Shown here: piece after piece, positions 341 to 15,589 of the stretch
Layout: the number at the start of each line of letters is the position of its first letter
Numbering within the stretch: position 1 is the first letter of the stretch
DNA from: an uncultured Lachnospiraceae bacterium
GTDB lineage: Bacteria; Bacillota; Clostridia; Lachnospirales; Lachnospiraceae
Reading direction: 5' to 3'
NCBI GenBank assembly: GCA_902774125.1
Contig: CACYHD010000017.1
Span: 26,427-59,003 of the forward strand
Length of the DNA: 32,577 bases
Translations under genes and position numbers: made by a program
The notes under the pieces: model-generated
What the model was told of the DNA's origin: nothing
Database searches by the model: none
The model's input: the letters and a program-made list of their open reading frames with translations, nothing else

Positions 341-379
341 TTCTAATGTATCTTTAATGTTTCTGTTATATAATATACT
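341..379 (+). promoter_or_regulatory. Direct-repeat operator and promoter of the CotH gene (site 1)
   Basis: CTAATGT at 343-349 is repeated as TTAATGT at 354-360, exactly 11 bp on. TATAAT (369-374) and TATACT (374-379) follow as -10 candidates, and no good -35 is present because the second repeat occupies that position. The same arrangement occurs at 10438, 12619 and 15555. In-phase 11-bp direct repeats replacing the -35 are typical of sites for OmpR/PhoB-type activators. A second TATAAT at 392-397 could be an additional start. Confidence 0.6.
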
Positions 380-436
380 AGTTCTGTATGTTATAATATA
401 TTCAGCACAATAATAAGCAACGGAAAGGAAAAGAAT

Positions 437-3400
437 ATGTTTAAGAAAATGAAACAAAAATTAACAATGCTTCTTGCGCTGTTAATGGCTTTGACTATGA
501 TTCCTCAAGGCCCAATAGCAGCTGGCAATTTGGATGATTATTACGATTATTATTCAGAAGATGTTGAACCGGTAGATCCGGCGGTATTTATGGAAGATTT
601 GATTGATGAGGCCAAGTCTCTTGGTGTGCCTGATGCTTTCTATCGACACAACTTGGGAACAGAGTATGCGGAAGGCAATCTTCTTGAACCTGTAACTGAT
701 CTTTTGGACGGGGAAGAAGCGCCTACAATCAATATGTCTATGTTCACAACAAATGACGGTGAAGACGGATTGCTTATCAACAAGATTGATACAGGTGTCC
801 TCGCAAGAACTAAGTTCGACTTGGGCGAATATGATTTTGACGACTTGGATGCTGGAAATTTGGTTTATAACATGATTGCCAAAAAGACTCTCAAAGGAAC
901 AGCATACCTATTTTGGGGAGATGAAACAGATCCTTTCGTTTCGTTCAAAATCAAGAGATGCGTCAATGACGACTGGGAAAAAACAATCAACAAAGTTGTT
1001 AATGTTTTTAACTCAGGTTTAAGTGGAAAACAGCACATTTACCTAAAGTTTATTGCTGATAGTGCTTTGGATGAAGATGAAAATATTATTCCGGTTTCAG
1101 GTGTGAAGGGAAATCTTTTCCTATCAAGTATTTTCTTTACTGAGGGAAGTACACCTGTAGTTGATTTTTCGTTGGATAATGAAATCTCTACTATCGACAA
1201 AGTTAACGGCTCTGAGCTACATACAGTTATGGCTTGTGGTGACATGAATATTAATGTTCCTGATGACTATAAGTCCGAGTTTACAGGTAAGTCTGTAGCA
1301 AGTGGATCTTATGAAATGGAATATATTAGAGGAAGAGGTAACTCAACATGGCTTGTTGACAAAAAGCCTTACAAGATTAAACTTGAAAAATCCTCTGATT
1401 TGTTCGGCATGGGTAAGAGCAAACATTGGGTTTTACTTGCTAATTATTATGACTATTCACTAATTAGAAATAGAATGACATTTGACTTGGGAAGACAAAT
1501 GGGCATGGAATATACACCTAAGAGTGTAAGTGTTGATGTAATAATGGATGGAGAATATTACGGAAGCTACCAGCTTTCACAGCACGTTCGTATAGGTAAG
1601 GGTAATATTGATATTGATGATATTGAAGACCTTGAGCCTACTGAAGTGCCAGAAATAACAGGTGGTTACTTGCTATCTATGGGAACTTCATGGCTTGTCG
1701 AAGAGGACGAGGAAGAAATTCCTTGGATTAACACTGACGAAGCAAGATTCAGAATTGAAAAACCAGAATATTCTGCTGATTATTCTGAAGAATCCAAGCA
1801 AGCGCAGATAGGTTATCTGAATGGATATTTTGCTGACTTAGAAAGTTTAATCAAGGCCACAAATGATGATGATCCTGATAACGATACAATTGATGGCAAA
1901 ACATGGCGTGATTATATGGACGAGCAGTCCTATATAGATTATTATTTGTTCCAGGAGTTCTCACTTAACGGAGATGCTTATTCTTCTGGAAGTACATATT
2001 TGTACAAGAAACGTGAAGGTAAGGTGTACTGGGGACCATTGTGGGACTTTGACTTTGTTGCTTGGGCAGCTGACAGTACTAACTATCTAGCTGATTCAGG
2101 TGCAGAGGGATTTGGCTTTGGTGAAAGTAATCCATGGTTTACTACATTGATTAAAAGTGATGAAGAATTCAAGCAGCATGTCATCGAAAGATGGAATGTT
2201 TTCAAAGGATATCTTGAAGCAGCCATCGCAGATGGTGGTTTGTTAGACCAGTACAAACAACAAACATATTATTCAGCTCTTGCTAATTATCAGGTTAGAG
2301 GCTCATATCTAATGGGCGGCCAAGGATATTGGGGTGGCGGAATCGATCTTGTTGATGATGACGGCAATCCTTATACTCTCAACTATACTAATGAGATGGA
2401 GCGACTAAAGAAATTTATCAGAGCTAGAATAGATTGGGTTGACGCAAATATCGACACAATCGATGAACAAACAGGTGGATATTCTGTTAAGGATCCTGTT
2501 AAGTTTTACGTAGATGACCAGGTTGTCGCAGAGGTACATGAAGTGGAAGATGGTTATCGTCTTATTGAGGATGAGATTCCAGCTGATCCAGTTAAAGAAG
2601 GCTTATACTTCGTTGGATGGTTCTACATAGATGAAGATGGTAAGGAAGTTAAGTTTTCTAAAGATGACTGGCCATATCGCTATGATGATGATATAGAAGA
2701 ATATGTACCATGTGATGTTCATGCTAAGTTCAAAAAAGAATCAGAGATTGTTGACGTACAAGATATATCATTTACTAGAACAAGATTATATGTTCCTGGA
2801 GATTCATATGCTGTAACAGGAAAATCTGAAGAATATTTCGAATCAACATCAATTGATTTGAGTGAGTATCTCAATATTGTTCCATTTGATGCTGACTATG
2901 GTGAAATCAAGTGGTTCAAAAAGAATGAGTCAGATCCATGGGAAATTAATAGTAAGGGAGAAGTAGATATTACTTCATTTGGTGAGTACGTATTCTGTTG
3001 CCAGATTGGTGATAAGACTGCTTCAATTGAAGTTAACTCCTTTGATTACAGTGATGAGGTAGAAGTTGGTATTGAAGATATAAGAGTTGGCGATACTCTT
3101 GAATTGAAAGAAGGCGAGTATGGCATGCTTGACTACGGATTTAAGAAGCCTAAAAACGTTGCTTACTACGCATACGATGGATTTACTTTCAAACCAATTG
3201 ATTCTCAAATGGTAGATGTCAACAACAACGGAGTAGTATTCGCCAAAAAAGCTGGTATTACTCAGGTATTGACTATTTATCCTTCAGGGGAAGATGTAGA
3301 TGTTAAGCTTACAACTATCATCATAAAGGGCGAAGAAGAAACAACAACTGCTAAGGATGATTCTAAGAAAGATGAACCTAAGAAAGAAGCTTTGAAGCCT

Positions 3401-3838
3401 GGTGCTACATTCACTGATGGAACATACAACTATAAGGTGACTAAGTCAGGAACAGTTGACGGTAAGACTGCAGGAAATGTTTCTGTAATAGGACTTAAGA
3501 ATAAGTCTGTTAAAAACATTAAAATCGCTAACAGAGTTGTATATGATAATATCCCATATAATGTTACACAGATAGCTAACAAAGCCTTCTACAAAAACAA
3601 GAAGATTAAAAAAGCTACAATTGGTAAGAATGTAACAAAGATTGGCTCTAAGGCATTCTACTTAGCTAACAAGTTAACTAAGGTAACAATTTCTTCAACT
3701 AAGATTAAAACAATAGGCAAAAATGCATTCAGAAGAAAGAAATGCAAGAAGCTTACATTCAAGGTTAAAAAGTCTAAGAAGAAGTCTTATAAGAAGAAAT
3801 TAAAGAAAGCTAAGACTAACAAATTCAAAGTTAAATAA
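437..3838 (+). CDS. Secreted CotH-type kinase with BspA-like LRR and Lys-rich tail
   Basis: A 1133-residue exported protein. Residues 1-29 are a signal peptide (basic start, hydrophobic core, IAA cleavage region). The CotH kinase domain spans about 250-700: RGRGNSTW at 298-305 followed by KPYKIKL, SLIRNRM with Arg344-Asn345-Arg346, a DVIMDGEYYGSYQLSQ stretch, and GPLWDFD at 533-539, the acidic metal/ATP site of this atypical protein-kinase-fold family. An InlB/Flg_new-like repeat (VGWFY...HAKF) lies near 700-760. A charged Thr/Lys/Glu linker follows at about 966-985, then BspA-type LRR_5 repeats (NKAFYKNKKIKKATIG, SKAFYLANKLTKVTI), and the end is extremely lysine-rich. There is no sortase motif; the cationic tail could hold it to the wall. 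Ribosome site GGAAAGGAAAAG precedes ATG 437. Known CotH proteins phosphorylate Ser/Thr; the substrate here is unknown. It is transcribed alone, behind operator site 1. Confidence 0.88.
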   Translation: MFKKMKQKLTMLLALLMALTMIPQGPIAAGNLDDYYDYYSEDVEPVDPAVFMEDLIDEAKSLGVPDAFYRHNLGTEYAEGNLLEPVTDLLDGEEAPTINMSMFTTNDGEDGLLINKIDTGVLARTKFDLGEYDFDDLDAGNLVYNMIAKKTLKGTAYLFWGDETDPFVSFKIKRCVNDDWEKTINKVVNVFNSGLSGKQHIYLKFIADSALDEDENIIPVSGVKGNLFLSSIFFTEGSTPVVDFSLDNEISTIDKVNGSELHTVMACGDMNINVPDDYKSEFTGKSVASGSYEMEYIRGRGNSTWLVDKKPYKIKLEKSSDLFGMGKSKHWVLLANYYDYSLIRNRMTFDLGRQMGMEYTPKSVSVDVIMDGEYYGSYQLSQHVRIGKGNIDIDDIEDLEPTEVPEITGGYLLSMGTSWLVEEDEEEIPWINTDEARFRIEKPEYSADYSEESKQAQIGYLNGYFADLESLIKATNDDDPDNDTIDGKTWRDYMDEQSYIDYYLFQEFSLNGDAYSSGSTYLYKKREGKVYWGPLWDFDFVAWAADSTNYLADSGAEGFGFGESNPWFTTLIKSDEEFKQHVIERWNVFKGYLEAAIADGGLLDQYKQQTYYSALANYQVRGSYLMGGQGYWGGGIDLVDDDGNPYTLNYTNEMERLKKFIRARIDWVDANIDTIDEQTGGYSVKDPVKFYVDDQVVAEVHEVEDGYRLIEDEIPADPVKEGLYFVGWFYIDEDGKEVKFSKDDWPYRYDDDIEEYVPCDVHAKFKKESEIVDVQDISFTRTRLYVPGDSYAVTGKSEEYFESTSIDLSEYLNIVPFDADYGEIKWFKKNESDPWEINSKGEVDITSFGEYVFCCQIGDKTASIEVNSFDYSDEVEVGIEDIRVGDTLELKEGEYGMLDYGFKKPKNVAYYAYDGFTFKPIDSQMVDVNNNGVVFAKKAGITQVLTIYPSGEDVDVKLTTIIIKGEEETTTAKDDSKKDEPKKEALKPGATFTDGTYNYKVTKSGTVDGKTAGNVSVIGLKNKSVKNIKIANRVVYDNIPYNVTQIANKAFYKNKKIKKATIGKNVTKIGSKAFYLANKLTKVTISSTKIKTIGKNAFRRKKCKKLTFKVKKSKKKSYKKKLKKAKTNKFKVK

Positions 3839-3894
3839 TTGCTTTTATTAAGTATATTTAACGGAAAAATTAATAAAATATTTTTATAAAAAAC

Positions 3895-3939
3895 TATCAA
3901 GCATATGTTATAAATTTATGTTATAATGTATGCTTGATA
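3895..3939 (+). promoter_or_regulatory. Promoter flanked by an 11-bp inverted repeat, upstream of the Fe-S operon
   Basis: TATCAAGCATA (3895-3905) and its exact complement TATGCTTGATA (3929-3939) enclose 23 bases that contain TATAAT (3922-3927). The left arm falls in the -35 region and the right arm at the likely start of transcription. That geometry suits a dimeric repressor sitting across the promoter. A terminator for the CotH gene is less likely, because the loop is long and no T-run follows the right arm. The regulator is not identifiable. Confidence 0.5.
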
Positions 3940-3998
3940 TTATTTATTAAGCAAAAAATCATATGAACAAATAAACATCCGATTAAAAGGAGAGAGCA

Positions 3999-4745
3999 AT
4001 GCTTGAATTAAAAAATGTTTCATATTCAGTAGAAGAAGATAATAGTGAAGTAACTATCCTTAAGGACGTTAATCTCACTGTCCCTGATAACAAGTTGGTT
4101 GTTATTACAGGACCTAACGGTGGTGGTAAATCCACATTGGCTAAGCTTATCGCCGGTGTTTTGGTTCCTACTGGTGGACAGATTCTTTTTAACGGCGTGG
4201 ATATTACTAATATGTCTATTACAGATAGAGCTAAGCTTGGAATTGGATTTGCATTCCAGCAACCAGTAAGATTCAAAGGAATACAAGTTTTTGACCTTAT
4301 AAAACTAGCAACGGGCAAACAACTTTCAATGGACAATGCATGCAAGTATTTGTCTGCTGTTGGATTGTGCGCTAGAGACTACATTAATCGTGAAGTAAAC
4401 GCTAGTCTATCTGGTGGCGAGCTAAAAAGAATTGAGATTGCCACAGTTCTTGCTAAAAAGTCAGCTTTGTCTGTTTTTGACGAACCGGAAGCAGGTATCG
4501 ATCTTTGGAGTTTCCAGAACTTAATAAAAGTTTTTGAAAAAATGAGAAAAGATATTGTAGATAGTTCTATAATTATTATTTCTCACCAAGAGCGTATTCT
4601 AGACATTGCAGATGAACTCATTGTTATTAAAGACGGAAGTGTGATTAAGCAAGGCGCTAAGGATGAAGTGATGCCTACACTTAACGGCACAGAGTCAGCT
4701 GTCAAGGAGTGCAATAAGAGTGCAGAGTGGAAAGGAGAAGCATAA
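3999..4745 (+). CDS. sufC: Fe-S assembly ATPase, SufC family (SmsC type)
   Basis: A 248-residue soluble ABC ATPase, the usual SufC length. It has Walker A GPNGGGKS at 38-45, the signature LSGGE at 137-141 continuing into LKR, Walker B VFDEPE with Asp161-Glu162, the D-loop AGID and the switch histidine in IIISHQE. DEPEAGID is the SufC form of Walker B, as opposed to that of nutrient importers. It powers conformational change in the SufB-like scaffold encoded directly after it (stop TAA at 4743-4745, next ATG at 4746). Ribosome site AAAGGAGAG precedes ATG 3999. No sufD, sufS or sufU lies in the window, so this is the reduced two-gene layout called SMS (SmsCB) in archaea and some Clostridia. A cysteine desulfurase must be encoded elsewhere, if one is used. 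Confidence 0.9.
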   Translation: MLELKNVSYSVEEDNSEVTILKDVNLTVPDNKLVVITGPNGGGKSTLAKLIAGVLVPTGGQILFNGVDITNMSITDRAKLGIGFAFQQPVRFKGIQVFDLIKLATGKQLSMDNACKYLSAVGLCARDYINREVNASLSGGELKRIEIATVLAKKSALSVFDEPEAGIDLWSFQNLIKVFEKMRKDIVDSSIIIISHQERILDIADELIVIKDGSVIKQGAKDEVMPTLNGTESAVKECNKSAEWKGEA

Positions 4746-5672
4746 ATGATTCAATTAGATGAAATCCAAAAAAGATTATTAACAGAAGTTGCGGACCTTC
4801 ACTCAGTTCCTGAAGGTGCATATAATATCCGTTCTAACAGTAAGGCTATCGCTAGAGAATCTACAGCTAATATTGACATCGTTCCACGTGAAGGTGGTGA
4901 TGGCATCGATATACACATTAAAGAAGGAACTAAAAACGAGAGTGTTCACATTCCAGTTGTTATGACACAAAGTGGTCTTAGCGAAAAAGTATACAATGAC
5001 TTTTATGTTGGAGACAACTGCGATGTAGTTATCGTGGCTGGATGTGGTATTGATAACTGCGGTCCTGAAGATTCAGAGCATGACGGTATTCACAGATTTT
5101 TTGTCGGCAAAAATTCTAGAGTTAAGTATGTAGAAAAACATTATGGCTCAGGAGATGGCAAGGGAAAAAGAATTCTCAATCCTGTTACAGAAGTAACAAT
5201 GAAAGATGACAGCACTATGGAAATGGAAATGGTGCAGATCAAAGGTGTTGATGACACTAACAGAAAAACTGTTGCTAAGCTCGGTGCGGGTTCTAAGCTA
5301 ATTGTTAGAGAAAGACTTATGACACACGGCGAGCAGACTGCGTTAAGTTCTTATGATGTAATACTTGACGGTGAAGGTTCAAGTGCTGATATTGTAAGTC
5401 GTTCTGTTGCAAGAGATCAGTCTTATCAGAAACTTGATCTTAAGATTGTTGGTAATGCTGCCTGCTCAGGACATACAGAATGTGATTCTATTATTATGGA
5501 TAACGGTAAGGTTTTGGCAGTGCCACAGCTTGAGGCTAACAATGTTGATGCTGCGCTTGTTCACGAGGCCGCAATTGGAAAGATTGCAGGAGAACAGATT
5601 ATTAAGCTTATGACATTAGGACTTACAGAAGCAGAGGCAGAAGAGCAGATTATCAACGGATTTTTGAAATAA
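4746..5672 (+). CDS. sufB: Fe-S assembly scaffold, single SufB/SufD-like protein (SmsB type)
   Basis: A 308-residue protein, far shorter than canonical SufB (about 470) and without the long N-terminal helical part. The right-handed beta-helix core is recognisable. The C-terminal signature is clear: ACSGHTECDSIIM, then ALVHEAAIGKIAGEQI and LMTLGLTEAEAEEQII. This matches the SufB/D end that binds SufC and carries the conserved HEA histidine/glutamate. Further cysteines sit in AGCGIDNCG (near 96-103) and ACSGHTEC, possible cluster or sulfur ligands. It is coupled to the ATPase gene with no gap and the pair ends at the hairpin 5685-5716. Known SmsB proteins assemble with two SmsC. Whether it should be called B or D is not decidable, because the SMS version predates that split. 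Confidence 0.82.
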   Translation: MIQLDEIQKRLLTEVADLHSVPEGAYNIRSNSKAIARESTANIDIVPREGGDGIDIHIKEGTKNESVHIPVVMTQSGLSEKVYNDFYVGDNCDVVIVAGCGIDNCGPEDSEHDGIHRFFVGKNSRVKYVEKHYGSGDGKGKRILNPVTEVTMKDDSTMEMEMVQIKGVDDTNRKTVAKLGAGSKLIVRERLMTHGEQTALSSYDVILDGEGSSADIVSRSVARDQSYQKLDLKIVGNAACSGHTECDSIIMDNGKVLAVPQLEANNVDAALVHEAAIGKIAGEQIIKLMTLGLTEAEAEEQIINGFLK

Positions 5673-5684
5673 AAATTATTATAG

Positions 5685-5716
5685 GCCGTAGTAAATTAAT
5701 AACAATTTGCTACGGC
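5685..5716 (+). terminator. Stem-loop after the Fe-S operon
   Basis: GCCGTAGTAAATT (5685-5697), loop AATAAC, and AATTTGCTACGGC (5704-5716) form a 13-bp stem with one G-U pair. It starts 12 bases after the scaffold stop. No T-run follows, so it may be a weak terminator or an mRNA 3' end stabiliser. Confidence 0.55.
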
Positions 5717-5720
5717 TCTG

Positions 5721-5729
5721 TGCTACAAT
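5721..5729 (+). promoter_or_regulatory. Likely extended -10 of thyA-folA
   Basis: TGCTACAAT is a TGn-extended -10 placed about 30 bases before the thyA ATG. No convincing -35 exists at 17 bp, which an extended -10 can tolerate. The upstream hairpin ends five bases before it. Confidence 0.4.
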
Positions 5730-5758
5730 AGAACAAGAATATAACAATTGGAGGGAAT

Positions 5759-6604
5759 ATGAGTTACGCAGATAAAGTATTTGTGGATATGTGTAAGGAC
5801 ATTCTAGCTAACGGTACAGATACCAAAGGCGAGAAGGTTAGACCTAAATGGGACGATGGCTCTTACGCATATACTATTAAGAAGTTTGGTGTAGTTAATC
5901 GCTATGACCTAAAAAAAGAATTTCCAGCTATGACTCTTAGAAAAACAGGATTCAAGAGCTGTGTTGATGAGGTGTTGTGGATTTGGCAAAAAAAATCTAA
6001 CAATGTTGGCGAACTTAATTCTCACATTTGGGATGCATGGGCAGATGAAAATGGTTCTATAGGCAAGGCTTATGGATATCAAATGAGTGTTAAACATCAT
6101 TATAAAGAAGGTGATATGGACCAGGTAGACAGAGTTCTATATGATCTCAAAAACAATCCGTACAGCCGCCGTATTATGACTAACATTTATGTTCATCAGG
6201 ATTTGCATGAAATGAATTTGTATCCATGTGCTTACTCAATGACGTTTAATGTTACTAAGAATGAGGAGACAGGCAAGCTTGTACTTAATGGCATGCTCAA
6301 CCAGCGATCACAGGATATACTTACAGCTAACAACTGGAATGTATGTCAGTATGCGGCACTTGTTCATATGTTTGCACAAGTTAACGACATGGAAGTTGGT
6401 GAGTTCGTTCATGTTATTGCGGATGCGCATATCTATGACAAGCATGTGCCTCTTGTTGAAGAACTAATAACTAGAGAGCAGCATCCGGCACCAAAGCTTT
6501 GGATTAACCCGGAAATAAAAGATTTCTATGATTTCACACCAGATGATCTCAAGTTGATAGATTATGAGACAGGACCACAAATCAAAATTCCTGTTGCAGT
6601 ATAA
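5759..6604 (+). CDS. thyA: Thymidylate synthase (ThyA)
   Basis: A 281-residue enzyme that methylates dUMP to dTMP using 5,10-methylene-tetrahydrofolate and releases dihydrofolate. The catalytic cysteine is Cys157 in LYPCAY. The nucleotide-binding stretch NQRSQD, the NNWNVCQYAALVHM helix and HVIADAHIYDKHVP are all present. Length and the end (LWINPEIKDFYDFTPDDL...PVAV) match the B. subtilis/phage phi3T ThyA type more closely than the 264-residue E. coli type. The residue after the catalytic Cys is Ala, not His, a common feature of this branch. GGAGGG (5750-5755) sits directly before the ATG at 5759. The next gene, folA, starts 20 bases after the stop and recycles the dihydrofolate produced here. 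Confidence 0.95.
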   Translation: MSYADKVFVDMCKDILANGTDTKGEKVRPKWDDGSYAYTIKKFGVVNRYDLKKEFPAMTLRKTGFKSCVDEVLWIWQKKSNNVGELNSHIWDAWADENGSIGKAYGYQMSVKHHYKEGDMDQVDRVLYDLKNNPYSRRIMTNIYVHQDLHEMNLYPCAYSMTFNVTKNEETGKLVLNGMLNQRSQDILTANNWNVCQYAALVHMFAQVNDMEVGEFVHVIADAHIYDKHVPLVEELITREQHPAPKLWINPEIKDFYDFTPDDLKLIDYETGPQIKIPVAV

Positions 6605-6624
6605 ATTGAAAGGTTGGTATAGTT

Positions 6625-7113: not shown

Positions 7114-7132
7114 TAATTATTATATTTAGCAT

Positions 7133-7162: not shown

Positions 7163-7458
7163 ATTATGCATATAAAAATGACAAAATATACAGGGTGTCA
7201 AAATTCGTGTAAGTTACTAATTTTAGATAAAAAAGTCCACTTTTTGACAGGTCTCTAAAAAAAGACACCACCCTTCGAAAAACACTCCTTTTTTGGCGTT
7301 GCAATCAATGCTATTTTTTTATCAGCAAAACACGGAGACAATATATTGCATAATCATGAATATCATTTTTTACGGATCCGGCGGTATTCAATGAGCAATG
7401 TCATGTGAGCTACAATTAAATAATATTTTTAGTCGTAAAGACGGGAGGAAAATTGAAG
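7163..7458 (+). other. Intergenic leader upstream of the glucanase, no gene
   Basis: About 295 bases without a supported gene. It holds a small inverted pair, GGTGTC (7194-7199) and GACACC (7264-7269), and several A/T runs. TACAAT at about 7411-7416 is the best -10 candidate and lacks a clear -35. A 26-codon frame at 7178-7258 has no ribosome site and is not called. The glucanase ribosome site GGGAGG is at 7443-7448. The sequence does not contain the CTAATGT direct repeat found near other surface-protein genes, so this gene is probably under separate control. Confidence 0.4.
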
Positions 7459-9411
7459 ATGAAGTTTTTTAAAAAGGCTTTAGCATCTGTTTTGTCACTT
7501 TCAATGGTATTTTCAGTTTCTATGATCGGAACAAACGTAAAAACTGAAAAAGTCAAAGCAGCTGCTACATCAAATTCTAAATTGGTTTGGAGTGATGAGT
7601 TTAATGGAAGTTCTCTAGATACATCAAAGTGGGGTTATGAAACCGGCGGCGGTGGCTGGGGAAATAATGAGTACCAGTACTACACTAATAGAAAAGACAA
7701 CGTTTATGTAAGTGGCGGTCAGTTACATATTAAAGCTAAAAAAGAATCATATGGTGGAAGAAACTATACATCAGGAAGAATTAATACAGCTGGAAAATTC
7801 ACAATGACTCATGGTTATGTTGAGGCAAGAATCGCACTTCCTTCATGCCAAGGTATTTGGCCAGCATTTTGGATGTTAGGTTCTAATATCGGTAGTGTCG
7901 GTTGGCCAAGATGTGGCGAAATCGATATTATGGAAGCAATCAATGCAGAAGCAAGAACATATAGCACATGTCACTGGGATAACAATGGACATGCAGAATA
8001 TGGTCAAAATATGGGACTAAATAATAGAACTGGATATCACACATACGCAGTTCAGTGGGATAGTAACTATATTAGAGGTTTCTGTGATGGAAACAAATAT
8101 TATGAAATGTATATTGGCGGCGGAGCTGGTAATACAGAAGAATTCCAGAGACCATTCTATCTACTACTTAACGTAGCAGTTTGTGGTAACTGGCCTGGAT
8201 TCTCAATTGACGAGGGAGCACTTCCTCAGGAAATGAAGGTTGATTACGTTCGTGTATATCAGGAGAATCCTAACTTCTCAAGTTCAGCAGGAAGTAGTGT
8301 AGACAAAAACACAGGATCATCAAATTCAGGATCATCTAATAGTGGTTCATCAAACTCAGGTTCAAGTAACACATCAACACCTGCTTCAGGCATGGGAATG
8401 AAATATAACAATGGTTCATCAGCAACAGCTTATGTAAATAGTTGTAAATGGGCAGATATTCACTATTCAGTTAACGGTGGTGGACAGCAGAATGTAAGAA
8501 TGACTCAGTCAGGTTCTAAGGCTACATACAATGTAGGCGGACTATCAAACGGTGCATCAGTAAGCTACTGGTTCACATACGCAGACTCAAACGGTGCTGC
8601 ACACGATACAGCTAAATATACATATAAGCACAGCTCAGGCAGCTCAAGTAGTTCAAGCTCATCAAGCAGCTCAAGCAGCTCAAGTAGCTCATCAAGCAGC
8701 TCAAGCTCATCTGTAAACACAAAATCAGGTGATGTTTATATTTATCAGGATGCTAACTACGGCGGAAGATCAGCTTCTCTAGGAGTTGGTAACTACACAC
8801 TTGCATCTCTACAGAATAAGGGATTCAAAAACGATGATCTATCATCAATCAAAGTTCCTTGGGGATACAAAGTAATTATGTACGCTGATGATAACTACAA
8901 GGGTTCAACTAAGATAGTTTATGCTGATACATCTTATGTAGGAAACGATTGGAACGATAAGGTTTCATCAATCAAGGTTCAGAAAGCACAGTACAAGATT
9001 GTTAACAGACACAGTGGACTTTGCCTAGACGTTAGTGGCGGAAGCAAAGACAATGGTGCTAACATTCAGCAGTGGAACGACAACGGTTCAAACGCTCAGA
9101 AGTGGACAGTAAACTTTAACAAGGGCGATTCAACATACGTATTAGTTAACGTTGGTAGCGGCAAAGCTATGGATATGGGCGGATGGTCCAAGGACAATGG
9201 TGGAAACTGCATCCAGTGGGATAACAACAATACAGACAACCAGAGATGGTACATCACATCAATTGACGCTGGTTATTCATTCTTGATTAACAAATACAGC
9301 AATAAGGGATTAGACGTAGCTAACTGGAGTACAGCTGCAGGTGGAAACGTTCACCAGTGGGATTACAAAGCTAACGCTAACCAGCAGTGGAAGTTTGTAA
9401 GAGTAAACTAA
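7459..9411 (+). CDS. Secreted beta-1,3-glucanase: GH16, CBM56, beta/gamma-crystallin, ricin-B lectin
   Basis: A 650-residue exported enzyme. The start is ATG 7459, ten bases after GGAGG; the in-frame TTG at 7453 is too close to that site. Residues 1-35 are a signal peptide (KAAA cleavage region). GH16 spans about 38-266, with catalytic GEIDIME: Glu154 nucleophile, Asp156, Glu159 acid/base, the laminarinase/lichenase form. After a (Ser-Gly-Ser-Ser-Asn) linker comes a CBM56-type beta-1,3-glucan-binding module at about 312-391 (HYSVNGGGQQNVRMT, YWFTYADSNG). A run of 24 serines follows. The beta/gamma-crystallin domain at about 424-510 has two Ca2+-clamp motifs, NDDLSS and NDKVSS. A ricin-type trefoil (CBM13) at about 512-650 has QW/QKW repeats. 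There is no anchoring motif, so the enzyme is probably released. Likely substrates are laminarin, callose or fungal/yeast glucan; GH16 alone does not fix the linkage. Confidence 0.93.
   Translation: MKFFKKALASVLSLSMVFSVSMIGTNVKTEKVKAAATSNSKLVWSDEFNGSSLDTSKWGYETGGGGWGNNEYQYYTNRKDNVYVSGGQLHIKAKKESYGGRNYTSGRINTAGKFTMTHGYVEARIALPSCQGIWPAFWMLGSNIGSVGWPRCGEIDIMEAINAEARTYSTCHWDNNGHAEYGQNMGLNNRTGYHTYAVQWDSNYIRGFCDGNKYYEMYIGGGAGNTEEFQRPFYLLLNVAVCGNWPGFSIDEGALPQEMKVDYVRVYQENPNFSSSAGSSVDKNTGSSNSGSSNSGSSNSGSSNTSTPASGMGMKYNNGSSATAYVNSCKWADIHYSVNGGGQQNVRMTQSGSKATYNVGGLSNGASVSYWFTYADSNGAAHDTAKYTYKHSSGSSSSSSSSSSSSSSSSSSSSSSSSVNTKSGDVYIYQDANYGGRSASLGVGNYTLASLQNKGFKNDDLSSIKVPWGYKVIMYADDNYKGSTKIVYADTSYVGNDWNDKVSSIKVQKAQYKIVNRHSGLCLDVSGGSKDNGANIQQWNDNGSNAQKWTVNFNKGDSTYVLVNVGSGKAMDMGGWSKDNGGNCIQWDNNNTDNQRWYITSIDAGYSFLINKYSNKGLDVANWSTAAGGNVHQWDYKANANQQWKFVRVN
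8641..8712 (+). repeat. Poly-serine tract of 24 codons (AGC/TCA/AGT repeats)
   Basis: A hexamer AGCTCA and variants repeat without interruption and encode 24 serines between the CBM56 and crystallin modules. Both serine codon families (AGY and TCN) are mixed. Slippage in units of three or six bases would change linker length without shifting the frame. Confidence 0.9.
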
Positions 9412-9506: not shown

Positions 9507-9550
9507 AAAATAGGTAAATGATGTTATGAAAAACATCATTTACCTATTTT
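9507..9550 (+). terminator. Terminator of the glucanase gene
   Basis: A perfect 19-bp stem (AAAATAGGTAAATGATGTT / AACATCATTTACCTATTTT) with a six-base loop ATGAAA and A/T flanks on both sides. It can act in both directions and therefore also against read-through from nth, which is convergent. Confidence 0.88.
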
Positions 9551-9562
9551 AAATTTCAAAAC

Positions 9563-9722
9563 TATTTTTTGAAGAACAGCATAATAATAAAGACTGATTT
9601 AAAACAATCTGCAGAGATGATATATTTAATCAATTAAATTATGAGTAATAATTGTAATTAAATATCATCTCGAAGCCGTTTTAAATCAGTCTTTATTATA
9701 AATGCTGTTTATAAAAAATATT
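9563..9722. repeat. Large imperfect palindrome between convergent genes
   Basis: The arms 9563-9604 and 9678-9722 are near-complementary. Their core, ATAATAAAGACTGATTTAAAAC, is matched exactly by its complement in the right arm, and AACAGCA at 9575-9581 pairs with the TGCTGTT end at about 9703-9709. An inner stem GAGATGATA / TATCATCTC (near 9613 and 9663) continues the fold. The whole could make one hairpin of roughly 160 bases. It may be the nth transcript end, a MITE-like element or a structured RNA. No target-site duplication was seen. Confidence 0.7.
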
Positions 9723-9730
9723 TTACAAAA

Positions 9731-10363
9731 CTATATATGTTTTTTACAAATAGACGACAGGCAACAGCGGTCACAATGTGGTGTTGTACGTGCTGTACAA
9801 ACATCTCTTCCGTGAAGTACAAGTCTATGGCAGAAATCACTTCCTTCATCTTCTGGGATTATTTTCCATAATGCCATTTCAACTTTCTTAGGATCCTTCT
9901 CACCATCCACAAGACCAAAACGATTAACTAATCTAATACAATGTGTATCTGTAACTATTGCAGGTTTGCCATACACATCACCAAGTATTAAGTTAGCACT
10001 TTTTCGTCCAACACCCGGTAGTTTTAGTAAATCCTTCATATTATCTGGAACAGTATAATTAAATTCATCTCTTAGCATAGTCATACAAGCTTTTATATCT
10101 CTAGCTTTGCTTTTTCCAAGGCCACATGGCTTGACGATAGCTTCTATAGCCTCTACAGGAGCGTCTGCTATAGCGTCTATATCAGGATATTTCTCGTACA
10201 GATTAGGCACAATACGGTTAACGCGTTCATCTGTGCACTGAGCGGCTAATCTAACGGAAATAAGCAATTTCCAGGCTATGCTAATGTCTAAGGAACATTC
10301 CGCGTCAGGATATTCTTGTTTTAGTAATTCTATTATTTCTATAGCTCTTTGTTTTTTTGTCAT
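9731..10363 (-). CDS. nth: Endonuclease III
   Basis: A 210-residue base-excision repair glycosylase/AP lyase for oxidised pyrimidines. The helix-hairpin-helix LPGVGRKSANLI carries the catalytic Lys121, and the active aspartate is Asp139 in VTDTHC, one off E. coli Lys120/Asp138. The 4Fe-4S cysteines are at the C-terminus, but their spacing is C-x7-C-x2-C-x5-C (CTARTTPHC...), one residue longer in the first gap than the usual C-x6-C. The minus-strand reading was checked and no frameshift explains the extra residue. Ribosome site AGGA lies 8 bases before the ATG. The gene is alone, convergent with the glucanase and divergent from the two-component operon. Confidence 0.95.
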   Translation of the reverse strand: MTKKQRAIEIIELLKQEYPDAECSLDISIAWKLLISVRLAAQCTDERVNRIVPNLYEKYPDIDAIADAPVEAIEAIVKPCGLGKSKARDIKACMTMLRDEFNYTVPDNMKDLLKLPGVGRKSANLILGDVYGKPAIVTDTHCIRLVNRFGLVDGEKDPKKVEMALWKIIPEDEGSDFCHRLVLHGRDVCTARTTPHCDRCCLSSICKKHI

Positions 10364-10435
10364 TTGTTAATTCCTTTTTTTAAAATTGTTTTATTGTATT
10401 TTACCATAATCCGGAGAAAAAATACTATTTTTGTA

Positions 10436-10472
10436 TTCTAATGTAGTTTTAATGTTTAGGTATTACTATAAT
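10436..10472 (+). promoter_or_regulatory. Direct-repeat operator and promoter of the two-component operon (site 2)
   Basis: CTAATGT (10438-10444) and TTAATGT (10449-10455) are 11 bp apart, followed after 11 bases by TATAAT (10467-10472). The context TTCTAATGTA is identical to site 1. The motif lies in front of the response regulator's own gene, which suggests autoregulation. The flanking AGGTATTA-TATA part is nearly the same as at site 4. Confidence 0.65.
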
Positions 10473-10533
10473 TATGCTAGAATAAGTAGGATTGAATTAG
10501 ATAATAATAGGTTTTGCACTAAGGAGGATATAA

Positions 10534-11208
10534 ATGAGACTTTTATTTGCAGAAGATGAAGAGGATTTGAATGCAATAGTTAAGATGAAACTTGAATCAG
10601 AGGGATACTTGGTTGATGCTTGCTTAGATGGAGAGGAAGCTATCGACTGTTTCGATATGGCTGAGTATGATTTGGTTATATTAGATATTATGATGCCAAT
10701 GGTTGATGGATTTGGCGTTTTAGAGCATATACGTAATTCAGGCAGTAAGGTTCCAGTGTTGTTTTTGACAGCAAGGGATTCTGTGGATGATAAGGTTAAA
10801 GGGCTAGATAGCGGAGCTAATGATTACTTAATTAAACCATTTGCTTTAGAGGAATTAATGGCTAGAGTTAGGGCTTTGACACGTAATGCTTTTGGTGAAA
10901 CTGAGAATACACTTAGTATTGCAGACTTAACTATGGATATTAACCGCCATGTTGTTACTAGAGGTGGCGAGGAAATTGAACTTTCTGCTAAGGAATATCA
11001 GTTGCTTGAATACCTTCTTCTTAACAAGGGAATTGTTATTTCCAGAGAAAAAATCGAGAACCATATATGGAATTATGATTATGAAGGTGGTACTAACGTT
11101 GTGGATGTTTACATTAGTTATCTTCGTAAAAAAATCGATGGTGGAAGAGATGTTAAGTTAATTAATACTGTTAGAGGAAGCGGATATGTCATTAAAGAAA
11201 AGAAATAA
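10534..11208 (+). CDS. OmpR/PhoB-family response regulator
   Basis: A 224-residue two-domain regulator. The receiver domain (1-115) has the acidic pocket Glu7-Asp8, phospho-acceptor Asp51 in VILDIMMP, Thr79 and Lys101 in YLIKPF, all the residues needed for phosphorylation. The C-terminal winged helix (about 128-222) has the usual LSAKEYQLLEYLLLNKG and the recognition helix and wing region NVVDVYISYLRKKID...RGSGYVI. Members of this family bind direct repeats of 10-11 bp, and such repeats lie upstream of this gene and three neighbouring units. The histidine kinase gene overlaps its end by 23 bases. AGGAGG-type site (AAGGAGG) precedes ATG 10534. Confidence 0.95.
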   Translation: MRLLFAEDEEDLNAIVKMKLESEGYLVDACLDGEEAIDCFDMAEYDLVILDIMMPMVDGFGVLEHIRNSGSKVPVLFLTARDSVDDKVKGLDSGANDYLIKPFALEELMARVRALTRNAFGETENTLSIADLTMDINRHVVTRGGEEIELSAKEYQLLEYLLLNKGIVISREKIENHIWNYDYEGGTNVVDVYISYLRKKIDGGRDVKLINTVRGSGYVIKEKK

Positions 11209-12622
11209 ACGATCTATACGATTTAATATAACTATATCATTTGCATTGGCTATGATTATTATCGCTATTCTTACTTTTGTGCTAGTACGATTTGTTAGCC
11301 AGGAAATATTAGAGAGTACAACAAGTAAGTATTTAATGAGTGCGGTTGATAGCAATGCGAATAAAATTGACTATGTGAAAAAGAAAAGTTCAAAAAGCAA
11401 GATTCGTAAAGATATAGTAATTAAGTACAAGAAGGGCTATCTGGAAATTGATAGAGACTTTTTAGGTATTATGCATGATGTCGAAAGTGGACTGTATGAT
11501 GAAAACGGAGACATGCTTTATGGTAAGAACCCTCTTGCAGATGAAAAAAAGATTGATTTTGTTCCATCTTTTTCAACATCTAGAATTTATAAACAAAAAA
11601 TCAATGGTAAACCTTATTATATTTATGATCGTAAAATTGTAGGAAACCACAAGAAAGGTCTTTGGATTAGAGGTATGGTGTCTCTAGTTCAAGAGGAAAA
11701 GCAGCTTATGGATATTACAAAAGCCACAGCTGTTTTTTTGCCGTTAGTAATTATTATAGCTATTATAGTTGGATTTCTTATATCTAACAGAATAATTAGA
11801 CCTATTAGGAAGATGGAAACTGTAACTTCTAATATTTCTAAGGGATCTGATCTGAAAAAACGAATCGAAGTTGGTGATGGTAAGGATGAGTTGACGATGC
11901 TTGCTAGAGATTTCAACGAAATGATTGAAAGGTTGGATGACTCATTTGAGGCGGAGAAGAGATTTATATCAGATGCCTCCCATGAGCTTAGAACTCCTAT
12001 GTCTGTAATAATGGCTCAGATGGAACTTACTATGGAAAAGGAAAGAACAGCGCCAGAGTACAAGGCAGCTATGGAAGTAATTTCCAGACAGAGCAATAGA
12101 ATGAGCACATTAATTGACAATTTGCTTGATTACACTAGATTAGAGCAACGTGCTCAAGAGTATGAGATGATTCAATTTGATTTAACTGATTTAGTTAGAT
12201 CAATATGTCATGATATGAAACTTGTTAAGACCAAAAACATAACACTTGAATATGATGTTGAAGAAGGAATAAATGTTAAGGGGAATCAGGTTTTGGTTTC
12301 TAGAATGCTACAAAATTTAATAGACAATGCCTATAAGTACGGTAATGATGATGGACATATTTGGGTTACATTAAAGAAAAGTCCAAGTGGTGATGTGGTA
12401 TTGTCAGTTAAGGATGATGGAATTGGTATTAGCGAAGAAGGTCAAAAACATATTTTTGACAGATTCTACAGAGAAGATACATCAAGAACACATAAGAAAC
12501 GACTATCATACGGATATGGTTTGGGCTTGTCTATGGTGAAAAAAATAGCTCAGATGCACGGTGCCCAATGTCTAGTTGACAGTAAGGAAGGCGTAGGAAG
12601 TCAGTTTGTTATTATATTCTAA
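11186..12622 (+). CDS. Membrane sensor histidine kinase
   Basis: A 478-residue kinase. Membrane helix 1 is at about 14-36 and helix 2 at about 181-201; between them lies an outside sensor region of about 145 residues that is rich in lysine and not a domain I recognise. HAMP follows (about 202-255). The HisKA box is FISDASHELRTP with His266. The ATPase part has the N box NLIDNAYKYG, G1 DDGIGI, the F box region FDRFYREDTSRTHKK and G2 GYGLGLSM. It starts inside the regulator gene with a GAGGAAG site, so the two are translationally coupled. Its stop codon TAA is part of operator site 3. It presumably phosphorylates the regulator encoded just before it; the signal is unknown. Confidence 0.94.
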   Translation: MSLKKRNKRSIRFNITISFALAMIIIAILTFVLVRFVSQEILESTTSKYLMSAVDSNANKIDYVKKKSSKSKIRKDIVIKYKKGYLEIDRDFLGIMHDVESGLYDENGDMLYGKNPLADEKKIDFVPSFSTSRIYKQKINGKPYYIYDRKIVGNHKKGLWIRGMVSLVQEEKQLMDITKATAVFLPLVIIIAIIVGFLISNRIIRPIRKMETVTSNISKGSDLKKRIEVGDGKDELTMLARDFNEMIERLDDSFEAEKRFISDASHELRTPMSVIMAQMELTMEKERTAPEYKAAMEVISRQSNRMSTLIDNLLDYTRLEQRAQEYEMIQFDLTDLVRSICHDMKLVKTKNITLEYDVEEGINVKGNQVLVSRMLQNLIDNAYKYGNDDGHIWVTLKKSPSGDVVLSVKDDGIGISEEGQKHIFDRFYREDTSRTHKKRLSYGYGLGLSMVKKIAQMHGAQCLVDSKEGVGSQFVIIF

Positions 12623-12655
12623 TGTGGGTTTAATATTTGCGTAATAACATATAGT
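12617..12655 (+). promoter_or_regulatory. Direct-repeat operator and promoter of the PepSY-LRR operon (site 3)
   Basis: CTAATGT (12619-12625) and TTAATAT (12630-12636) are again 11 bp apart, with TATAGT (12650-12655) as the -10 candidate. The first repeat includes the stop codon of the histidine kinase. The second repeat has one change from the other sites. Confidence 0.55.
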
Positions 12656-12768
12656 TATAAACAGTAAAAGTAGGTATATTAGTACATACAATTTTGCTAA
12701 AAACTGTAAGATAAAACGTAATTAAAGCTATTTGTTGATTTGATTAATAGCATTAGTAGGTGAATGAT

Positions 12769-13560
12769 ATGAAAAAGATATTTTCTGACAAAAGAATAAA
12801 AATAGTTTTGATTAGCTGTTTGGCAATAGCGTTAATTGTTATTGGTGGTATTTATGCGGCACGAACAATTGCCAGAAATAGTTCGATAGGTGAGGATGCT
12901 GCGGCGAGTTTTGCATATTTGGATGCTGAAGTAGAAAGCAGTGATGTCACAAACAGTACTATAAAGTTTGAGTACAAGGATGGGTCTTATGTTTATATAG
13001 TTAAGTTCCAAACAGACCAAGCAAAATACAGCTATGTTGTTAAGGCTTCAAACGGAATAATTCTTAATAAAAAAGTTATCAAGCTAAAGAAAACTAAAAC
13101 AAATAAGAGTGATAAGAAAAAGCATAAGAAAAAAAAGAAACATTCCAAGGACAAAGAAAAGACAACGGATGAGGAAACATACAAATCCAGTACTAATTAT
13201 GGAAGAGTTAATAAATCTCATAATAAAGTAAAAACAACGCTAACATATGATGAAGAAGATGATTATATAACAGTTGATAAGGCGAAGTCTATTGCTCAGT
13301 CAAGCGCTGGAGAATCATCAGCTGTTTTTACTGTGGCACAGATGGGAACAGAAAACGGTGTGGATGTATATTATGTTCATTTCACTGCTGGAAATAATGA
13401 GTATCAATATGTCATTAATGCTAAGTCTGGATCTATTATGGGTAGTCAAAAAATATCCCATAAAGAAACTAAAAAAGATGACAGTGGTGATAACGAAGGT
13501 GATGATAGCGGAGATGATGGTGATAACGGAAATCAAGATGGAAATGGAGAAATAGATTAA
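12769..13560 (+). CDS. Membrane-anchored protein with two PepSY-like domains
   Basis: A 263-residue protein. ATG 12769 is chosen because AGGTG (12757-12761) is seven bases before it; a GTG at 12760 overlaps that site. One membrane helix (about 11-31) leaves the rest outside. PepSY-like domain 1 is at about 38-100 (SSVTNSTIKFEYKDGSYVYIVKF type, ending ASNGIIL) and domain 2 at about 165-228 (ITVDKAKSIAQ...YYVHFTAGNNEYQYVINAKSG). Between them is a strongly basic Lys-rich linker (about 102-136), and the protein ends in an Asp/Gly-rich acidic tail. PepSY proteins often accompany two-component systems and peptidases in Firmicutes and may modulate proteolysis or sensing. The LRR gene follows 29 bases later, probably in the same transcript. 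Confidence 0.82.
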   Translation: MKKIFSDKRIKIVLISCLAIALIVIGGIYAARTIARNSSIGEDAAASFAYLDAEVESSDVTNSTIKFEYKDGSYVYIVKFQTDQAKYSYVVKASNGIILNKKVIKLKKTKTNKSDKKKHKKKKKHSKDKEKTTDEETYKSSTNYGRVNKSHNKVKTTLTYDEEDDYITVDKAKSIAQSSAGESSAVFTVAQMGTENGVDVYYVHFTAGNNEYQYVINAKSGSIMGSQKISHKETKKDDSGDNEGDDSGDDGDNGNQDGNGEID

Positions 13561-13589
13561 TCCAATTGTTTAATAAAAAAGGAAAATGA

Positions 13590-15458
13590 ATGATGAAGAA
13601 GTTACTGAAAAAAACAATAATTGCTGTATGTTTTTTTGCAGCCATTGTAATTGTATTTGGTATGGCAAAGGACGTGTCAGCTAAGTCTAAGATTACTTAT
13701 AAGTTAAAGAAGGGAACTTTGACTATAAAGGGAAAAGGTGATATTCCTAAGAAGAAAACATTTAAGAACAACAAAAAGATAAAGAAAGTTGTAATCAAAA
13801 AAGGTATTAAGTCAATACCTAACAATGCTTTTAGAAAATGTACCAAGCTAAAGAAAGTAACTATTCCAACTTCTGTTAAGAAGATAGGTGCATGTGCTTT
13901 TTATGGCACAAGATTAAAGAAACTTACAATTCCTAAGAATACAAAGCAGATTGGTGATGGATTTGTTAGTAACTGCAATTCTCTAGAAGTGTTAACTGTT
14001 CCTGGAGACTTTGCAATGGTAAATGAAGAAGGTTATCATGCAGGATATAGTCCGATTAATGACACATACTTAGTTCAAGTTAAGTTTAACAGTAATCTTA
14101 ACTACAAGATTTGCGGATACTTTAGAACTATGAACTTCGGTGTTGCAAAGAATGATAAGAATTTTAAAACAATTGATGGAGTTGTTTATACTAAGGATGG
14201 TTCCGGTATTGTAAGAGTGCCCTCAGAAAGAACGTCTTTGGCAATTGCTAATGGATGCCAGACTGTTTATACAGCTGCTTTATCGTACCAGTTCGGAGAT
14301 AATAGAGTTGTTTCAAAACTTGCTAATGTAACAATTCCAGCAAGCGTAACGAAAATTACTAATAAGAAGTATAATGTTAATGCTTTTGTACCTAAATCAC
14401 AAAAAATCAATTTTAAGATAATAGATCAAAGTAAATTATCAATTAATGATTTTGTGATATTGAAAAATGCTTTTGGAATCAAATCTTCTAAGTTGGCTAA
14501 AATGCTTCCTGAAAGAATAAAGTTTGATGAGGAATATAAAGTATATATAGGTGACAACAAATACTTAGTTTCTGGGGGAGGAGATTATATTGTAATTCCT
14601 GAAGGAGTTGAGATTATTTGTGAAGAAGCATTCAAGGGGTATTCTAGACCAATAATAAATAAACTAGTTGTACCGGAAGGTGTAAAAGAAATAAGAGATT
14701 ATGCCTTTGATAGTGCTTATTTCCAAGAAATGATATTGCCTGAATCGCTTACTTTGATTGGAGAAGGAGCATTTTATAATTGTGATCATCTCGAAAAAAT
14801 TAATATTCCTAAAAACATAAATGTGATTAATGATTTTGTTTTTTGGTTTTCAAGGTCTCTTAAAAAGGTTAATTTTGAAGGTAAAATAACATCATTTGGC
14901 AAGAATGCATTTGCATACACCAATGTTAATATTAATGAACTTCTTAAGGTTGATGGATTGAAGAAGTTGGGGGATAGTGTTTTTGACAGCGTAGATTTCA
15001 AAAATATTACTATTCCAGCAACAATCGAAACTATTGGAACTAATGTTTTTGACTTCTTTAATTATGGTGGAATTAGATACGTTACCTTTGAAGGAAGTAC
15101 CAACAATTATACTCCTTTAATGTTTGCAAATTATTATGAAAATGGTAATCTTTCATTTACACAAGGAATTAAAGATGCTTTTACCGGATTACATGTTGGA
15201 CGTACAAACCTAAATAAGAAAAATTACGAAATATCTTTGTGGTGGATTAAAGTAAGCGATGCAACAGGATATGAAATTAGACTAAGTAAAGATGCTGCAG
15301 GCAAAAAAGGTGTTAGAAAAATCTTTGCTAAGTATAATGAGAATTCTAAAATATTATCAGATAAGAAATCTGATAAGCATATATACGCTAGAATTAGACC
15401 ATATAAGCTGGAAAACGGCAAGAAAGTTTATGGTAAGTGGACTGTGCAGGTGATGTAA
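13590..15458 (+). CDS. BspA-like leucine-rich repeat surface protein, copy 1
   Basis: A 622-residue secreted protein. Signal peptide 1-33 ends at DVSA-KS. A very basic stretch (KKGTLTIKGKGDIPKKKTFK) leads into LRR_5 repeats at about 50-130 (IPNNAFRKCTKLKKVTIP, IGACAFYGTRLKKLTIP). The middle is less repetitive. A second repeat block sits at about 345-510 (ICEEAFKGY, IRDYAFDSA, IGEGAFYNCDHLEKINIP). The C-terminal 80 residues (IKVSDATGYEIRLSKDAAG...RPYKLENGKKVYGKWT) look like a fibronectin-III-like module common in Lachnospiraceae surface proteins. There is no sortase or cell-wall repeat motif. BspA-type LRRs mediate adhesion to host or surface ligands; the ligand here is unknown. It is about three-quarters identical by eye to copy 2. 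Confidence 0.88.
   Translation: MMKKLLKKTIIAVCFFAAIVIVFGMAKDVSAKSKITYKLKKGTLTIKGKGDIPKKKTFKNNKKIKKVVIKKGIKSIPNNAFRKCTKLKKVTIPTSVKKIGACAFYGTRLKKLTIPKNTKQIGDGFVSNCNSLEVLTVPGDFAMVNEEGYHAGYSPINDTYLVQVKFNSNLNYKICGYFRTMNFGVAKNDKNFKTIDGVVYTKDGSGIVRVPSERTSLAIANGCQTVYTAALSYQFGDNRVVSKLANVTIPASVTKITNKKYNVNAFVPKSQKINFKIIDQSKLSINDFVILKNAFGIKSSKLAKMLPERIKFDEEYKVYIGDNKYLVSGGGDYIVIPEGVEIICEEAFKGYSRPIINKLVVPEGVKEIRDYAFDSAYFQEMILPESLTLIGEGAFYNCDHLEKINIPKNINVINDFVFWFSRSLKKVNFEGKITSFGKNAFAYTNVNINELLKVDGLKKLGDSVFDSVDFKNITIPATIETIGTNVFDFFNYGGIRYVTFEGSTNNYTPLMFANYYENGNLSFTQGIKDAFTGLHVGRTNLNKKNYEISLWWIKVSDATGYEIRLSKDAAGKKGVRKIFAKYNENSKILSDKKSDKHIYARIRPYKLENGKKVYGKWTVQVM
13656..13705 (+). repeat. 50-bp segment identical to 15782-15831
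   Basis: The DNA coding for the signal-peptide end and first mature residues (GMAKDVSAKSKITYK) is identical base for base in both LRR genes, including third positions. The surrounding sequence differs at many silent sites. Confidence 0.9.
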
Positions 15459-15531
15459 TGATAAAAGTTTAATTAAAAAGTATTGCATATATAAAATATA
15501 AAATACAACAGAAAAAATATAATAGAAAAGT

Positions 15532-15562
15532 AAGATTAGAATTTTTTTAAGATTCTAATCTT
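15532..15562 (+). terminator. Stem-loop between the two LRR genes
   Basis: AAGATTAGAAT (15532-15542) pairs perfectly with ATTCTAATCTT (15552-15562), and ATTTTAATTTT follows. It could terminate the PepSY-LRR transcript. Its right arm is also the first half of operator site 4, so the two readings overlap. Confidence 0.55.
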
Positions 15563-15589
15563 ATTTTAATTTTAAGGTATTAGTATAGA
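15553..15589 (+). promoter_or_regulatory. Direct-repeat operator and promoter of LRR copy 2 (site 4, degenerate)
   Basis: CTAATCT (15555-15561) and TTAATTT (15566-15572) keep the 11-bp spacing. AGGTATTAGTATAGA, with its -10-like part at 15584-15589, closely resembles the same region of site 2 (AGGTATTACTATAAT). The TG of each repeat is lost. The site gives LRR copy 2 its own promoter and explains the long 260-base gap before it. Confidence 0.45.

Follow-up and report, generated by a model that had tools for sequence, protein, structure and literature searches.

The window analysed here is a 32,577-nucleotide stretch of contig CACYHD010000017.1 (assembly GCA_902774125.1, positions 26,427 to 59,003) from an uncultured Lachnospiraceae bacterium, with a GC content of 36%. 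It encodes a two-component system (TCS), comprising a response regulator (RR) and a sensor histidine kinase, and four of its promoters, that of the RR gene included, carry a pair of short repeats. The locus raises the question of whether this direct repeat is an operator, which regulator would bind it and which genes it would control. A sequence-only reading of the window had proposed that the repeat marks a four-promoter surface-protein regulon of the local TCS. Our comparison with other genomes makes it highly probable that the repeat is the operator of the RR encoded at 10534-11208, which would activate its own operon, a PepSY-domain gene and surface-protein genes. Across genera the core circuit appears to consist of the RR, the kinase and an extracytoplasmic PepSY protein, with surface genes seen among the targets in the genus of the window only.

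The direct repeat in the window

The full element is the 22-mer TTCTAATGTNNTTTTAATGTTT, in which two heptamers lie 11 bp apart at all four window sites. The sequence-only reading had worded the pair as CTAATGT/TTAATGT. This is exact at 343/354 and 10438/10449, and the pair at 15555/15566 is degenerate, as that reading had said (CTAATCT/TTAATTT, two bases off), but the pair at 12619/12630 is one base off (CTAATGT/TTAATAT), which it had not mentioned. The four promoters precede a CotH-kinase-domain gene with leucine-rich repeats (LRRs), the RR gene, a PepSY-domain gene followed by an LRR gene (LRR1), and a second LRR gene (LRR2). The predicted sites and the genes concerned are as follows.

341..362, + strand: operator 1, at the CotH-LRR promoter; heptamers with 0 mismatches, and 341-374 has the top matrix score of the window (33.2 bits)
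369..374, + strand: -10 hexamer TATAAT, 6 bp past operator 1 (from the sequence)
437..3838, + strand: secreted CotH-kinase-domain protein with a BspA-type LRR end (PF08757, 2.7e-38; PF13306, 2.6e-12)
10436..10457, + strand: operator 2, at the RR promoter, suggesting autoregulation; 0 mismatches to the 22-mer, 26.3 bits
10464..10469, + strand: -10 hexamer TACTAT, at the conserved distance from operator 2 (from the sequence)
10534..11208, + strand: OmpR/PhoB-family RR (PF00072, 4.3e-28; PF00486, 4.6e-27)
11186..12622, + strand: sensor histidine kinase with HAMP, HisKA and HATPase domains (PF00672, PF00512, PF02518)
12617..12638, + strand: operator 3, at the PepSY-LRR1 promoter; 20.2 bits, from the sequence
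12645..12650, + strand: -10 hexamer TAACAT, 6 bp past operator 3 (from the sequence)
12760..13560, + strand: PepSY-domain protein with an N-terminal membrane segment (PF03413, 2.3e-8, residues 170-228)
13590..15458, + strand: secreted BspA-like LRR protein 1 (PF13306, 2.3e-54)
15553..15574, + strand: operator 4, at the LRR2 promoter; 21.8 bits, rank 3 in the window
15581..15586, + strand: -10 hexamer TAGTAT, 6 bp past operator 4 (from the sequence)
15719..17587, + strand: secreted BspA-like LRR protein 2 (PF13306, 2.5e-55)

A scan of the window alone for the 22-mer with up to three mismatches gave 24 matches against 20.3 expected, which is chance level; such a loose consensus scan is useless by itself and does not allow sites to be called. 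A 34-position matrix derived from PepSY promoters of other genera, scanned over both strands, ranks exactly the four sites of the sequence-only reading first to fourth (33.2, 26.3, 21.8 and 20.2 bits), with the fifth-ranked position at 9.1 bits, 11 bits lower. None of 20 shuffled windows reached the score of the fourth site, the best shuffle giving 16 bits. This matrix is partly circular, as its sites were chosen with a matrix trained on the genus; the dyad count given below is free of any matrix.

The RR consists of a receiver domain and a winged-helix Trans_reg_C domain, as in the OmpR/PhoB family, and its gene overlaps the kinase gene by 23 bases. Operator 3 starts inside the kinase gene, whose stop codon TAA forms part of the first half-site (TTCTAATG). 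A perfect TATAAT at 10467-10472 overlaps the TACTAT hexamer of operator 2. The CotH-LRR protein has a signal-peptide-like start according to a home-made test, which was used for all signal-peptide calls in this study. LRR1 probably belongs to the PepSY operon, judging by the intergenic distance of 29 bases. The two LRR proteins are alike, with 622 residues each.

Recurrence of the operator at PepSY genes of other genera

We searched GTDB contigs for relatives of the RR and kept 80 loci, six from the genus (82-83% identity) and 74 with 55-71% identity. The latter are mostly from Lachnospiraceae, with some from Oscillospiraceae and Butyricicoccus, and include Catonella morbi and Niameybacter massiliensis. 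PepSY-like matches were present in 73 of the 80 loci, or 72 without L133, where the kinase frame is the sole match. After removal of the genus loci, kinase frames and near-identical upstream regions, 84 PepSY genes from 65 loci remained. An operator of at least 10 bits, scored with the genus-trained matrix, was found upstream of 62 of these 84 genes, compared to 6 of 756 other genes in the same loci. The opposite strand of the 84 PepSY upstream regions gave no site and shuffles an expected 0.15. Five of the six other genes were listed, and two of these (L110 and L114) are the RR gene itself, with its start codon taken further upstream. A count that uses no matrix singles out TAAT-N7-TAAT as the 4+4 dyad with the strongest enrichment upstream of PepSY genes; it has a period of 11 and occurs in 61 of 85 PepSY upstream regions and in 5 of 738 others (p = 5e-66).

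The PepSY proteins carry one to three Pfam PepSY stretches. The domain of the window protein that exceeds the Pfam cut-off is its second, the first having been recognised by eye alone. A signal-peptide-like or anchor-like start was found for the window protein and for the PepSY examples printed, a subset of the 84. Two loci have particular arrangements: in Catonella morbi (L080) three PepSY-like genes follow the RR and two of them have an operator of their own, and in L083 two operators, with four half-sites in all, follow each other directly upstream of a PepSY gene (+2554 relative to the RR), an arrangement that would suit a tetramer.

RR genes outside the genus also have sites of at least 10 bits, with 12 of 71 upstream regions carrying one that faces the RR (shuffle mean 0.2) and 11 of 71 one on the opposite strand (shuffle mean 0.1). 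Nine of the 11 opposite-strand sites face a divergent PepSY gene; as for the other two, the L108 locus ends too early to judge and L125 does not fit.

The distance between the operator and the -10 hexamer is nearly invariant. The hexamer starts exactly 6 bp past the 22-mer in 55 of the 62 scoring PepSY promoters from other genera and at all four window sites (pattern TANNAT). The sequence-only reading had placed a -10-like hexamer at 8-13 bases; the hexamers are there, and the range can be taken as a single fixed spacing of 8 bases past the second heptamer, or 6 past the 22-mer. The profile of the 62 sites is YTYTAATNTTNYTYTAATNTT, with conserved columns T29 (97%), A30 (98%) and T34 (98%). Our -10 finder resolves ties towards 7 bases; the column frequencies are independent of it. 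Over 50 columns the repeat and the -10 alone are conspicuous, the upstream element consisting of two copies 11 bp apart that start 28 bp before the -10. A separate -35 box is not visible in this profile, in agreement with the earlier proposal that the repeat takes its place. Because the phase to the -10 is fixed at 6 bp and the -35 is missing, the RR would be a class II activator, as this class is generally understood for OmpR/PhoB regulators. A tandem dimer of a regulator of this type matches both the strict spacing and the period of 11 bp.

Probable targets in the genus and in the window's own genome

Within the genus (24 genomes), an RR with at least 82% identity is present in seven genomes (G000, G001, G004, G005, G006, G011 and G017); among the remaining ones, three have a relative at 57-58% and one a relative at 54%. 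Sites with 0-2 mismatches number 26 in the seven close-RR genomes and 4 in the other 17, and at least two such sites occur in 7/7 and 0/17 genomes, respectively. All 26 sites are accounted for, 6 lying before the RR gene and 20 before a gene with a signal-peptide-like start. At three mismatches the seven genomes contain 17 matches, 6 of them before a signal-peptide-like gene, 1 before a protein with five membrane segments, 7 intragenic and 3 without a fitting gene. Of the four sites in the other 17 genomes, that of G009 is intragenic, and that of G012 separates the 54% RR from a lipoprotein-like gene that diverges from it. G013 has its site before a secreted gene, and in G014 the site falls in a short open frame, 185 bases upstream of a gene that looks secreted.

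Reversed patterns served as controls, of which 27 of 72 were examined. The seven close-RR genomes gave 10 reversed matches versus 43 forward ones. Eight of these 10 are intragenic, four of the eight lying 307-343 bases before a gene that is positive in the signal-peptide test, and two are without a fitting gene. The 17 controls examined from the other 17 genomes comprise 14 intragenic matches and 1 before a secreted gene.

We also considered whether relatives had lost the PepSY gene and an LRR gene had taken over its promoter. This was rejected, as a PepSY match lies near the RR in G001, G004, G005, G006 and G011 (below the family cut-off in three of these five). The gene order in G006, as read, is RR, kinase, operator, LRR and PepSY.

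The window's own genome (1.9 Mb in 86 contigs, 93% complete) contains 10 matches to the 22-mer with up to three mismatches, versus 3 for the reversed pattern, and 12 exact matches to the core YTCTAATNNNNYTTTAAT, versus 0. When the -10 hexamer at its fixed distance is included and at most one mismatch allowed, there are 19 matches versus 1, and 13 of the 19 have no mismatch. A genome-wide scan, with the downstream genes listed, had been proposed as a check together with the sequence-only reading. An RR, PepSY or secreted-protein gene follows 14 of the 19 promoter-level matches (reversed control, 1). The sequence-only reading was thus right in essence, but the regulon would comprise about 14 promoters in the own genome and not four. 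The targets are listed below by contig and position.

Window: RR; PepSY, with LRR1 behind it; CotH-LRR; LRR2
C5:54650, C6:31732 and C34:14249: three further secreted BspA-type LRR genes
C19:24183: secreted gene with an LRR_5 match slightly below the cut-off
C14:27005: secreted gene with LRR_4 repeats
C1:73728: large secreted protein with a CarboxypepD_reg domain and an Ig-like match slightly below the cut-off
C14:32971: secreted NlpC/P60-SH3 protein, 237 bases from the site
C40:23783: site before a secreted serpin with an Ig-like domain, gene at C40:23921-25348 (L256:5922-7349; Pfam serpin, 3.4e-69)
C40:19767: secreted protein without a Pfam match
C63:922: another secreted protein, not Pfam-scanned

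LRR_5 matches occur in 14 genes of this genome, one of them below the cut-off, and seven of the 14 follow an operator directly or in its presumed operon. The genes at the remaining five sites were named by eye, without a family search.

C29:14078-14110 (L273): perfect operator and -10 at ruvB, the -10 overlapping the start codon
C29:18316: site within a U32-peptidase-like gene
C5:12430 and 12459 (12430-12491; L277, L278): overlapping one-mismatch operators on opposite strands, between LCP-like and sugar-transferase-like genes
C6:2475: site before a zinc-ribbon membrane protein

A secreted protein gene lies downstream of ruvB, and the ruvB site may be chance or real. The operator pair on C5 would link the regulator to envelope polysaccharide as well.

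Across the family, we sampled 200 genomes, one per genus, and found an RR relative (E <= 1e-70) in 47. The 46 RR-bearing genomes besides the own one contain 24 exact core matches, and for 11 of these the RR lies no more than 3 kb away. No other genome among the 200 has as many core matches as the own one (12, control 0); two genomes with 7 each come next (controls 3 and 4). A large regulon throughout the family is unsupported, as outside the own genome the core is not commoner than its reverse. Without such a genome-wide surplus, the signal is confined to the neighbourhood of the RR, and the excess in the own genome suggests that the surface regulon is a local extension.

Between a folA-like gene, recognised by eye, and the RR region, 7453-9411 encodes a secreted glucanase of family GH16 that also carries CBM56, a Ser-rich linker and ricin-type lectin domains; in G006 a folA-like gene directly precedes the RR. 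At 17752-19680 a DUF975 membrane protein is fused to an ABC_trans_CmpB domain.

The proposed circuit, its alternatives and known systems

We propose that the phosphorylated RR binds as a head-to-tail dimer, with one subunit on each TCTAAT/TTTAAT half-site, 11 bp apart. The bound RR would cover the -35 region and activate from the -10 located 6 bp downstream, in the class II fashion of OmpR/PhoB-type regulators. It would thereby raise its own RR-kinase operon and the extracytoplasmic PepSY protein, which most likely feeds back on the kinase, the stimulus perhaps being some envelope condition. In this genus the RR would also raise about a dozen secreted surface proteins (BspA-like LRR, CotH-LRR, serpin, NlpC/P60 and others). 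That the local RR is the binder and that surface proteins are its targets had both been suggested before, and the comparison supports both ideas. The operator recurs at the RR, and above all at PepSY genes, beside RR relatives in many genera, and its concentration in the seven close-RR genomes and presence in most PepSY upstream regions of other genera indicates that the local RR very probably binds the repeat.

Several observations weigh against this interpretation. Operators are absent from 22 of the 84 PepSY upstream regions, and neither strand carries a site in 48 of 71 RR upstream regions outside the genus. A reversed matrix also scores, in 20/84 PepSY upstream regions at 10 bits and in 5/71 RR upstream regions on the forward and 0/71 on the opposite strand; as a control it is weak, since the word is similar to its own reverse, and shuffles, the opposite strand and other genes were used besides it. 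In the family sample, 32 of the 46 other RR-bearing genomes lack an exact core match, and the 199 other genomes contain 108 exact cores versus about 150 reversed ones (hand count), with no genome-wide surplus. In the other 17 genomes of the genus, three-mismatch matches are not above the controls (53 versus 62). In G013 (91% complete) an operator precedes a secreted gene, yet an RR was not found at E <= 1e-60, and the RR of G017 has no site (best match with nine mismatches, record L060). The close-RR genomes may form one clade, so the genus comparison is supportive rather than independent. In the own genome, five of the 19 matches are not before an RR, PepSY or simple secreted-protein gene, and the signal-peptide test has a background of 16 positives among 60 genes from control stretches.

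The repeat could belong to this RR and yet be a repressor site, at which the dimer blocks the -35 until the kinase is switched off and the surface genes become free. The site does cover the -35 region, and OmpR-family proteins can also repress from such a position. A repressor would have no need of a fixed phase to the -10, however, and the distance of exactly 6 bp in most promoters and the profile, in which only the repeat and the -10 are conspicuous, make repression unlikely. Another explanation is that the binder is a second OmpR-type RR from a different locus, with the local RR merely one of its targets. This would suit G013, which has a site and no close RR, and the DNA-binding region, being highly uniform across the 81 RRs compared, says little about specificity. 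It is nevertheless a poor candidate, since the site adjoins this RR family, at PepSY and often at the RR, in many genera, and an unlinked regulator would not lead one to expect the clustering near the RR (within 3 kb) of 11 of the 24 exact matches in the 46 other family genomes that have it.

The fixed distance to the -10 would also be expected if the repeat were the recognition element of an alternative sigma factor. We regard this as very improbable, because the -10 is sigma-A-like (T 97%, A 98%, last T 98%), the two-copy element starting 28 bp upstream is longer than a -35 box, and it is linked to a TCS. Chance matches in an AT-rich window would account for the scan of the window and for the missing family-wide surplus of the exact core, but the real counts are far above those of shuffles, reversed patterns and control genes, and the matrix from other genera and the dyad count contradict chance, which leaves it hardly credible. 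Activation by the local RR remains the preferred interpretation. The best NCBIfam match of the RR is a heavy-metal regulator model, below its cut-off; as the best 25 of 101 RR models and the best 25 of 89 kinase models all fall below their cut-offs, we claim no metal function for either protein.

The operator of CiaRH in streptococci, TTTAAG-N5-TTTAAG, is also an 11-bp direct repeat near the -10. Its half-site differs from the one described here, and we know of no PepSY link for CiaRH. The CiaRH regulon includes small RNAs.

The RR aligns to PhoP (3r0j) at 1.6e-57. PhoP of Mycobacterium tuberculosis binds as a tandem dimer to 7-bp direct repeats with a strict 4-bp spacer (PMC4832192), which gives the same 11-bp period for a homologous regulator, but its half-site is TCACAGC and its regulon is a different one. 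SaeRS of Staphylococcus aureus, as described in PMC5083920, likewise has a direct repeat with an 11-bp period (GTTAA-N6-GTTAA), a self-induced operon, a secreted and surface regulon, and auxiliary envelope proteins, SaePQ, that act on the kinase. The kind of system is known, with a two-component regulator, its direct-repeat site and a regulon of secreted proteins (PMC5083920). Here, in contrast, the half-site is TCTAAT/TTTAAT followed by NTT, a PepSY gene occupies the auxiliary place and the other targets differ; the 62-site profile does not match the SaeRS operator, as it has T before TAA and C or T in place of the G of GTTAA.

TCS-PepSY modules have also been described already. In DbfQRS of Vibrio cholerae the kinase and RR genes adjoin an extracytoplasmic PepSY gene and DbfQ binds the kinase DbfS, and similar neighbourhoods of a TCS and a small extracytoplasmic PepSY gene occur across phyla, at more than 60-fold over chance (PMC12714742). 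The present system differs in being from Gram-positive Clostridia, in having one to three Pfam PepSY stretches and a defined operator, and in a genus regulon of mostly surface proteins; contact between PepSY and the kinase is putative here. We suggest PepSY as the partner of the kinase because of the DbfQ-DbfS precedent and because the PepSY gene is the most constant target. The sequence-only reading had recognised no described system with this gene content; TCS-PepSY modules are in fact published, but among the open-licence PMC records listed we found no description of an operator or regulon for a clostridial TCS-PepSY module.

These comparisons may point to an old clostridial RR-kinase-PepSY feedback circuit that was turned into a master switch of the cell surface in one Lachnospiraceae genus. 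The operator would have been copied, or have evolved, before 7 of 14 BspA-like LRR genes (CotH-LRR included), the serpin and the NlpC/P60 gene, so that one envelope signal sets the adhesion coat while PepSY sets the gain; we judge the case for this scenario to be evenly balanced. For a two-component family without an NCBIfam name, the analysis provides an operator, a promoter geometry and a list of targets, and it opens the regulator, the PepSY role and the signal to direct tests. It would connect LRR proteins on the surface of rumen and gut bacteria with a single envelope signal, and what most deserves to be pursued is how a core of RR and PepSY grew into a regulon of surface proteins.

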